NCBI RefSeq assembly: GCF_021390675.1
Contig: NZ_JAJEJV010000004.1
Location: 1,426,001-1,490,000, forward strand
Origin: Dyella sp. 2HG41-7
GTDB lineage: Bacteria; Pseudomonadota; Gammaproteobacteria; Xanthomonadales; Rhodanobacteraceae
Length of the DNA: 64,000 nucleotides
Reading direction: 5' to 3'
A program made the position numbers and the translations under genes. Shown here piece by piece: positions 17,980-18,907 of the stretch. The notes below the pieces were generated by a model. That model saw nothing but the letters and a program-made list of their open reading frames with translations, did not search any database and was not told the DNA's origin. Numbering within the stretch: position 1 is the stretch's first letter; every line of letters starts with the position of its first letter.

Positions 17980-18056
17980 CGGGGCGTAGCGCAGCCTGGT
18001 AGCGCATTTGCCTGGGGGGCAAAGGGTCGTCGGTTCGAATCCGGCCGCCCCGACCA
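17980..18056 (+). tRNA. tRNA-Pro (GGG)
   Basis: Complete cloverleaf with encoded CCA. The acceptor stem CGGGGCG pairs with CGCCCCG. The anticodon stem TTTGC/GCAAA encloses loop CTGGGGG, so the anticodon is GGG. The T-arm has GGTTCGAATCC. A terminator follows at 18074. Confidence 0.96.
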
Positions 18057-18073
18057 ATTCGCAGAACAGATCG

Positions 18074-18097
18074 ACGGCGCCCTGGGCGCCGTTTTTC
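18074..18097 (+). terminator. Intrinsic terminator after tRNA-Pro
   Basis: ACGGCGCC and GGCGCCGT form a perfect 8-bp stem with a CTG loop, followed by TTTTC. It closes the transcript that contains tRNA-Pro. Confidence 0.9.
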
Positions 18098-18181
18098 GTT
18101 TCGGCTTTCCGTCGCCATTTCGAACGATGACACGCTAGTCTCAGCGCCAGTGACCCCACTGCGCAGGAAGGAGCTCGCGTT

Positions 18182-18907
18182 ATGCCGTCGAACACCTGTC
18201 ACCCGAATGCCCCGCACGTCAAACTGAAGGCGCCCGATTGGTACATGTCGTCGCTGATGATGGATCGCGCGCTCGACGCCGTCTTGCGCCGAGTGAAAAA
18301 GCTCGACCGCAACCATGACATTCCTTATCTCGCCGGCTACAGCCAGGACGGCAAAACCATCTATATCGATCGCCATTTGCCGAAGTCGTTTACGTTTCGC
18401 GGTCGCTCGATCGACGTGGATCGGTTTTTGATTCTTCACGAAGAAGTGGAGAAAACGCTGATCGATCAACTCGGACTGCACTACTTGCACGCCCATCAGA
18501 TCGCCACGCGCGCGGAAGAGGCAGCGGTACATGCGCAGCGCATCACCTGGAAGGCCTATGACCGCTTCATGCAGAAATACGTGAAGAAAATCGGCGACGA
18601 ACGCTTGAGCAAAGTGCCGGTAGATTTGGACCTCAAACCGTATCGCGATTATCACGACTACGAGTTGCTGCAACGCATGGAGCAGCACCTCGATCAAAAA
18701 GCGGGCTATACCGCCAAGCAGAAAGCCGAGTTGAAATCCTACGCCGCGGCGTTTCGCGAGCAGATTCGCGTGCAGCGGCAGCATGAAGTGCAAGGCGACG
18801 CAGCGAAACCGGAGAAGTCCGCTAAAAAGACAAAGGCCGCTACGAAAGCCGCAAAATCAAGCAAGCCGTCAACTAAGCGGAGCGCGCCGGCCAAGCGCGC
18901 CAAGTAA
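18182..18907 (+). CDS. Unidentified protein with HExxE-type motif and lysine-rich tail
   Basis: I do not recognise this 241-aa family. Two parts are visible. Residues 15-190 are a soluble domain with a metal-site-like pattern: HEEVE at 86-90, then His100, His103 and His105, and Glu112-Glu113 (LHYLHAHQIATRAEE). This resembles zinc peptidase geometry, though it is not a named signature. Residues 195-241 are almost only Lys, Ala, Ser, Thr and Pro with a histone H1-like composition, suggesting nucleic-acid or polyanion binding. There is no signal peptide or TM segment. A GGAAGGAG-like site precedes the ATG. It stands alone between tRNA-Pro and a convergent chemoreceptor. Confidence 0.75.
   Translation: MPSNTCHPNAPHVKLKAPDWYMSSLMMDRALDAVLRRVKKLDRNHDIPYLAGYSQDGKTIYIDRHLPKSFTFRGRSIDVDRFLILHEEVEKTLIDQLGLHYLHAHQIATRAEEAAVHAQRITWKAYDRFMQKYVKKIGDERLSKVPVDLDLKPYRDYHDYELLQRMEQHLDQKAGYTAKQKAELKSYAAAFREQIRVQRQHEVQGDAAKPEKSAKKTKAATKAAKSSKPSTKRSAPAKRAK

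Follow-up and report, generated by a model that had tools for sequence, protein, structure and literature searches.

The 64,000-nucleotide stretch of Dyella sp. 2HG41-7 DNA analysed here (the window) contains an intact open reading frame of 241 codons plus a stop codon, with an ATG start, and this locus raises the question of what kind of protein joins a histidine-rich core to a C-terminus rich in lysine and alanine (coordinates in Table 1). A preliminary description had proposed a putative metallo-hydrolase tethered to DNA, RNA or polyphosphate by a histone-H1-like tail. The open reading frame and the residues that it named are as it said, with HEEVE at residues 86-90, His100, His103 and His105 forming an HxxHxH cluster, and Glu112. 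Our reading, to which we assign a probability of about one half, is that the gene encodes a small zincin-like (minigluzincin-like) metalloprotein with a predicted His-Glu-His metal site, that the protein would be a peptidase, and that in phages it would act with an ATE-like transferase.

By sequence comparison, the protein belongs to a strongly conserved family that is not named by any model of Pfam, PHROGs, NCBIfam or PADLOC. With the window protein as query, Pfam returned no family at E ≤ 10, and the other three libraries returned one chance match each: PHROGs on the linker and tail (E 0.27), NCBIfam (E 0.057), and PADLOC to Cas8a (E 0.028). For six further family members, every PHROGs match either lay off the core or was no better than chance, and member L084 matched Pfam at chance level only. 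Peptidase_M78 (PF06114) was absent from the best 25 of the 29 Pfam families for 68 members and had no match in the own genome, and hhalign comparisons of the family with M78, Zincin_1 and SprT, whose target alignments are shallow (12, 25 and 8 rows), gave probabilities below 1% (M78, 0.3%). A match to a known non-catalytic family would have counted against the preliminary description; for the window protein no such match is significant, the nearest being a weak resemblance to DtxR that is weighed below.

Relatives are encoded at 65 loci of the species genome set, all labelled as Pseudomonadota groups except for one Eremiobacteraeota-labelled bin with a Dyella-like match (78%). The relatives found lie in Rhodanobacteraceae, in some Hyphomicrobiales and in uncultured phages, with phage proteins at 38-51% identity and Dyella and Rhodanobacter records at 67-89% identity to the window protein. 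The gene is present as a single copy in its own genome (4.26 Mb, four contigs), and it is carried by 14 of 15 congeneric genomes (G003 being the exception), by 56 of 147 sampled genomes of the window's own family, Rhodanobacteraceae, by 5 of 398 genomes in a phylum sample that counts the own genome, and by 4 of 297 genomes in the order of G090, all of one genus. Plasmid relatives comprise 10 records, all from Mesorhizobium. Alignment queries of viral contigs gave 30 loci and then the best 80 of 101 relatives, on partly overlapping contigs; tblastn against deposited phages gave no match for the window protein or for two phage relatives.

Six of the viral-contig loci (L085-L090) encode proteins 70-90% identical to the window protein and are cell-like. 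Because L085 has phage tail-like genes (identified by eye) immediately 5' of the gene and a presumed serA on the other side, we interpret it as host flank. In a tree of 82 rows without near copies (125 columns, with many of its forks unresolved), L087 falls within the cellular group and L089 and L090 fall beside it; diversity is high among the remaining viral rows, and branching within the cellular group is shallow. A supported group of 16 rows, otherwise made up of Rhodanobacteraceae, Nevskiaceae and unnamed proteobacterial rows, also contains three alphaproteobacterial ones (L049, L052 and L055), and this placement points to horizontal transfer. At one locus, in a Nevskiaceae bin (L066), the coding sequence is divided between two open frames, and the gene is there either broken or mis-assembled.

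The metal site put forward in the preliminary description is largely borne out. His86, Glu90, His105 and Glu112, together with Glu87 and Asp63, do not vary in any of the 111 loci, among them phage relatives of about 40% identity, and the same is true of Tyr101, Ala108, Pro48, Gly52 and Tyr53 (136 rows, with 25 viral loci entered twice and near copies included). The motif is HExxE in all 136 rows and is never HExxH. The other two histidines of the cluster are not family-wide: in the viral rows other than L085-L090, His105 and Glu112 are each present in 57 of 57, His103 in 15 of 57 and His100 in 3 of 57, and His100 and His103, which vary in phages, were rejected as family-wide ligands. Downstream of the two helices, in the rows that reach the conserved 'P.DLDL.PY' segment, Asp150 and Pro153 are each present in 134 of 134 and Tyr154 in 132 of 134.

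Because portions of the HE and PYLAGY motifs had been built into the search patterns, a check for bias was made. Nine viral rows fit no HE pattern of the searches, and all nine keep His86, Glu87 and Glu90; Asp63, Tyr101, His105, Ala108 and Glu112, each present in all 63 viral rows, were in no search pattern. We conclude that the invariance does not stem from the way in which the rows were searched for. The motif is also more than a chance pattern: among 2005 open frames of at least 150 aa in the window plus the 65 loci, counted after frames with 'AGYS' had been removed, the spacing HE..E-x14-H-x6-E is found in 3, two of which belong to the HExxE family itself. The core has a dN/dS of 0.041 (15 sequences, window included) and is under strong purifying selection; pN/pS is 0.34 in the linker and 0.53 in the tail, dS being saturated there.

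Near the N-terminus, Cys6 is present in 65, His7 in 66 and His12 in all of the 67 rows of the cellular alignment, from which L001, L065 and L066 were left out, and among the few viral-contig rows that reach this motif Cys6 is present in 5 of 7 and His12 in 10 of 22. The motif might, as a guess, be an N-terminal switch. In four phage proteins (L109, L111, L112 and L114), about 20 additional residues separate the HExxE helix from Tyr101.

Table 1. Features of the locus, in window coordinates.
Feature	Position	Strand	Basis or remark
tRNA-Pro (GGG)	17980..18056	+	directly upstream of the 18182-18907 gene; recurrent neighbour in Dyella/Rhodanobacter
Terminator-like hairpin between tRNA-Pro and the 18182-18907 gene	18073..18093	+	consensus match only
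Shine-Dalgarno-like AAGGAG	18168..18173	+	8 bases 5' of the ATG, read directly
Gene for HExxE zincin-like protein, 241 aa, stop codon included	18182..18907	+	ORF read; relatives; core dN/dS
N-terminal C6-H7-P8...H12	18197..18217	+	conserved in cellular relatives
Asp63, invariant, just after strand 59-62	18368..18370	+	63/63 viral-contig rows
HEEVE, residues 86-90; H86, E87 and E90 invariant; helix 80-97	18437..18451	+	
His105, invariant, helix 101-118; proposed third metal ligand	18494..18496	+	
Glu112, invariant, same helix 101-118, two turns past His105	18515..18517	+	
D150-L-K-P153-Y154 of the conserved 'P.DLDL.PY' segment, after the helices	18629..18643	+	
Basic K/A/S/T/P tail, residues 206-241	18797..18904	+	composition kept in near relatives, sequence not

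Predicted structures point in the same direction as the metallo-hydrolase proposal: the AlphaFold2 models of the window protein (68 rows; pLDDT 81.5 overall, block means of at least 90 for residues 41-130) and of the phage relative L098 (56 rows; pLDDT 88.8, pTM 0.80) both resemble metallopeptidases of the zincin type, although the scores are low. Because their alignments share rows, the two models do not count as independent. Both run from a helix or helices through strands to a helix carrying HExxE and a further helix carrying His105 and Glu112; the window-protein model has one long helix (19-37) before the strands, and the L098 model has two short ones (9-15 and 18-25). The PDB lists from Foldseek and VIA are headed, for both models, by selecase, jannalysin, abylysin, IrrE/PprI and BlaR1, and the best VIA match is selecase 4qhf in each case (window protein, Z 4.6, 95 aligned, 4.0 Å; L098, Z 5.2, 89 aligned, 3.8 Å). 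All VIA Z values are below 8, where the tool warns that a common arrangement is possible, and no PDB match in Foldseek has an E below 0.001; the first clearly non-zincin row in the L098 VIA list stands at rank 26, with rows classed by their titles and 6d2s only presumptively. A viral structure library gave two relatives (E 5e-10 and 2.5e-9), one of them named as a polyvalent-protein domain, the name of the BFVD relative being 'Large polyvalent protein associated domain'. Because the scores are low, the zincin likeness is a consistent resemblance and not proof; the fold, as modelled, is probably of a known, zincin-like kind.

The closest structural counterparts of the two models are thus the minigluzincins and M78-like zincins, with which they share the succession of helix, strands, active helix and second helix, and the His-Glu pair on the active helix. 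The HExxE family differs from them in having HExxE for HExxH, an invariant His105 and the conserved 'P.DLDL.PY' segment, and its sequence similarity to M78, Zincin_1 and SprT is not significant. Zincins have HExxH, and this defining feature fails here because every member has HExxE. The family looks like a small protease in which one metal-binding His has been changed to Glu.

The zincin-like domains of phage polyvalent proteins offer a second comparison, being alike in their phage setting and in the occurrence of some fusions (PMC5512222, from the excerpt consulted). At loci without the ATE-like partner described below, the HExxE domain is fused to a weak Mu-F-like part (L092) or to a NUDIX domain (L110), or lies between capsid- and tail-like genes (L097, by eye); in L100 and some relatives, which have that partner, it is fused to a C-terminal phrog_36119 domain. 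The zincin-like metallopeptidase domains of polyvalent proteins have, in the excerpt of the same source, a highly conserved HEXXH (PMC5512222); the present family, in contrast, has HExxE, and 52 of its 63 viral-contig proteins are shorter than 280 aa. The L092 fusion is a 925-aa phage protein (L092:7700-10474) in which several hundred residues, in part intein-like by eye, lie between the weak Mu-F-like part and the HExxE domain.

The mechanism that we infer, which covers the metal, the ligand set, the catalysis, the substrate and the role of the tail, is as follows. A backing helix and beta-strands would be followed by two antiparallel helices, of which the first would contribute His86 and Glu90 and the second His105 as ligands of a single metal ion; the His-His-Glu set usual in gluzincins would thereby be swapped to His-Glu-His. 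Glu87 would be the general base that activates water, Glu112 and Asp63 would shape or complete the metal site, and what is cut would most likely be a peptide bond. In the predicted hairpin of helices 80-97 and 101-118, worked through by hand, residue 86 would lie opposite 112 and residue 90 opposite 108, with His105 one turn off, and this hairpin makes the clustering of His86, Glu90 and His105 plausible. In phages, the ATE-like enzyme encoded by the preceding gene would add an amino acid to a protein or peptide, and the HExxE enzyme would trim or expose that end. In Dyella and Rhodanobacter, where the gene has no ATE-like neighbour, a disordered basic tail would have been added and may bring the enzyme to nucleic acid.

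We take CLCA1, M35 and the neurotoxin light chain to be HExxH enzymes, and we therefore do not count the appearance of 'HEXXE' for them in print as precedent. In the excerpts of those papers the motif is given in passing, and the Glu is not named as a ligand (PMC6851300, PMC7215534, PMC5851995). HExxE with the proposed His-Glu-His ligands would be a new variation on a zincin-like metalloprotein. If the His-Glu-His site is right, a zincin scaffold can carry metal with swapped ligand positions throughout a family of phages and bacteria; even if the readings of the site and of the gene pair are wrong, the present work is the first anatomy of a strictly conserved metal-site family that lacks a Pfam, PHROGs or NCBIfam model.

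The alternative that survives best, though we regard it as unlikely, is that His86, Glu90 and His105 bind Fe(II) or Mn(II) in a sensory or structural site resembling the ancillary site of DtxR/IdeR, with no catalysis. In IdeR, according to the excerpt consulted, His79, Glu83 and His98 belong to one site and Glu105 to the other, with Glu172 and Gln175 as further ligands, and the +4, +19 and +26 spacing of His86, Glu90, His105 and Glu112 on the helix hairpin is identical to that of His79, Glu83, His98 and Glu105 (PMC4689551). Sequence signals of DtxR also recur: phmmer with the window protein finds the DtxR chain 7b24 at E 0.32, the 68-row profile aligns with that chain without gaps across the helix hairpin, Fe_dep_repr_C (PF02742) is matched by one of 68 members at E 0.002 (and by the window protein not at E ≤ 10), and hhalign against a DtxR alignment gives a single-comparison E of 0.013. 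However, this likeness is not significant for a library search (profile E 1.7, hhalign probability 3.4%), and no winged helix-turn-helix is seen in the models, in which the site is preceded by one or two helices followed by strands. Moreover, Glu87 is extra with respect to DtxR/IdeR, being invariant in the HExxE family and Arg in the aligned DtxR chain, and IdeR Glu172 and Gln175 are given no counterpart in the family. The prediction of a metal site does not depend on the choice of zincin or IdeR as template, because both name the same three ligands; only catalysis depends on that choice, and the invariance of Glu87 favours catalysis.

Next in order, and improbable, is that the protein is an Fe(II) alpha-ketoglutarate-dependent oxygenase of zincin fold and not a hydrolase, with His-Glu-His as a 2-His-1-carboxylate facial triad. 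HEXXH alpha-ketoglutarate-dependent non-haem iron oxygenases with a zincin-reminiscent fold are known (PMC12636437, in excerpt), the VIA list contains a chain of this kind (8s5f_E, Z 3.7), 22ob 'SjiH-Ni' may, by its title, be a second (Z 3.2 and 3.1), and a glutaredoxin-like gene is among the phage neighbours. These oxygenases nevertheless keep HExxH, and the resemblance to them is no better than the resemblance to proteases. Ranked below it, and doubtful, is a pseudo-peptidase, that is, a zincin that has lost its metal site and serves as a binding module. The change from HExxH to HExxE in all 111 loci speaks for it, but the catalytic residues of pseudo-enzymes usually drift, and here Glu87, Glu90, His105 and Glu112 are invariant although identity to L098 drops to 31%.

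The tail bears on the last alternative and on the remaining claims of the preliminary description, which had called the last 45 residues nearly pure Lys, Ala, Ser, Thr and Pro. This holds for the last 36 only (K11 A10 S5 P3 T3, 32 of 36, plus R2 D1 E1); the preceding nine contain none of these residues. The tail resembles histone-H1-like and other K/A-rich tails in being long, basic, K/A-rich and predicted to be disordered, residues 211-241 being coil with pLDDT 53-66 in the window-protein model. Across relatives, its length ranges from 0 to 49 residues; 64 of 67 cellular rows have it, and 45 of 63 viral rows end at most 11 residues past the profile match. Because the tail is variable and most viral-contig rows end near the profile match, tethering is not family-defining, contrary to the picture of an H1-like tether as the protein's characteristic trait. 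Judged from the aligned sequences, the tail is a lineage-specific accessory, and it may help nucleic-acid binding. Least probable of all is a protease like SPRTN or Wss1 that the tail would tether to DNA, a reading that gives the preliminary proposal a specific form: an excerpt places Wss1 and Spartan among the minigluzincins (PMC4559962), both are in the VIA lists (5jig Z 3.1 and 6mdx Z 2.8 with the window model, Z 3.2 and 3.5 with the L098 model), and K+R exceeds D+E in 63 of the 64 cellular rows having the tail, but the tail is of variable length (0-49 residues) and fast evolving (pN/pS 0.53), most viral rows end near the profile match, and the key motif differs from that of SPRTN/Wss1.

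For the preferred reading, that of a zincin-like peptidase, the phage gene pair is the most interesting result and the main lead. Of 53 phage loci for which a gene was called upstream, in a survey that left out L085-L090 as cell-like, 31 encode one recurrent protein family there on the same strand, and these paired loci represent 25 of 47 cores differing by at least 20%. The gap from partner to HExxE gene, measured with the start codon nearest the partner's stop as the HExxE start, is between -35 and +2 bases in 31 of 31 pairs. In the reverse search, among the best 80 of 426 partner relatives (those most like the L098 partner, many on contigs already counted), the HExxE gene comes next in 75 of 78 testable loci, two of the 80 contigs ending too soon, and in 39 of 42 without near copies, overlapping genes counted.

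The partner proteins resemble the aminoacyl-tRNA-protein transferases ATE1/Bpt. Pfam ATE_C is found in 22 of 27 partners at E ≤ 0.01 (best 3.5e-7), with two of four scanned singly above the Pfam curated cut-off and two below it, and NCBIfam arginyltransferase models are matched by all three partners tested (best E 8.5e-8). Unlike ATE1/Bpt, these three score far below the NCBIfam equivalog cut-off (best 32.2 bits vs. 252); the four partners scanned for ATE_N gave no row at E ≤ 5, and tblastn with the L098 partner found no relative among 50,697 deposited phage records. Other recurrent phage neighbours, named from one scanned member each, are glutaredoxin-like (15 loci), WYL_2-like (13), GNAT (10) and AdoMet-decarboxylase-like (8) families. 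At L098, L101, L127 and similar loci, the ATE-like/HExxE pair often shares a block with glutaredoxin-like, WYL_2-like and AdoMet-decarboxylase-like genes.

By analogy with N-degron pathways, the steady pairing of a tRNA-dependent-transferase-like gene with a protease-like gene suggests writing and cutting at protein ends. A more specific proposal, which we offer as a speculation of low but real probability, is that phages encode a self-contained two-gene module for tagging and proteolysis, in which the HExxE protease would expose an N-terminus on a protein of the host or of the phage, for the transferase to mark for the host N-degron pathway (or the protease would remove what the transferase adds), and that the slowly evolving cellular version in Rhodanobacteraceae and some Hyphomicrobiales may cooperate with Bpt, the transferase of the host. 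Should the pairing have the meaning proposed here, phages would tag proteins with amino acids and trim them with enzymes of their own; a narrow literature search found no account of such a phage pair. In the own genome, the ATE_C gene lies about 1.8 Mb from the HExxE gene, and no ATE gene is adjacent. The ATE_C gene is general in the Dyella group: G003 has it but lacks the HExxE gene, and in G013 (86% complete), which does carry the HExxE gene, it was not found. Because each of the two genes is thus found without the other, co-dependence of the cellular gene and the ATE_C gene is not shown.

The cellular gene has a setting of its own. The order ihfA - tRNA-Pro - gene - serA, in which ihfA and serA are presumptive names for the window's proteins, recurs across many Dyella and Rhodanobacter loci; these neighbours are found at none of the loci outside that group, nor at L025-L029 inside it. 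The interval between tRNA-Pro and the gene looks like an insertion hotspot. Three terminator-like hairpins are found in the region by consensus match, against 1.5 expected, and the open reading frame convergent with the gene presumably encodes a chemotaxis receptor, as read by eye. A mobile origin by way of the tRNA-Pro gene was considered and rejected, a second copy of the tRNA end (with up to 3 mismatches) being absent from the window, and inspection by eye of eight loci found no partner for the cellular gene.

Some further observations concern individual loci. The distance from tRNA-Pro to the gene is about 0.9-4.4 kb in L013, L015, L022 and L064, compared with the usual distance of about 0.1-0.2 kb. 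Eight alphaproteobacterial-type loci of the cellular gene (L041, L042, L044, L046, L047, L050, L051 and L053) have as a common neighbour a second nearby open frame with a KAEF.RIS.A.LRESHVHD stretch. In one congeneric genome, a weak SprT-like match, below the cut-off (22.2 bits), lies about 300 bases from the gene's relative (L247, G006:C31).
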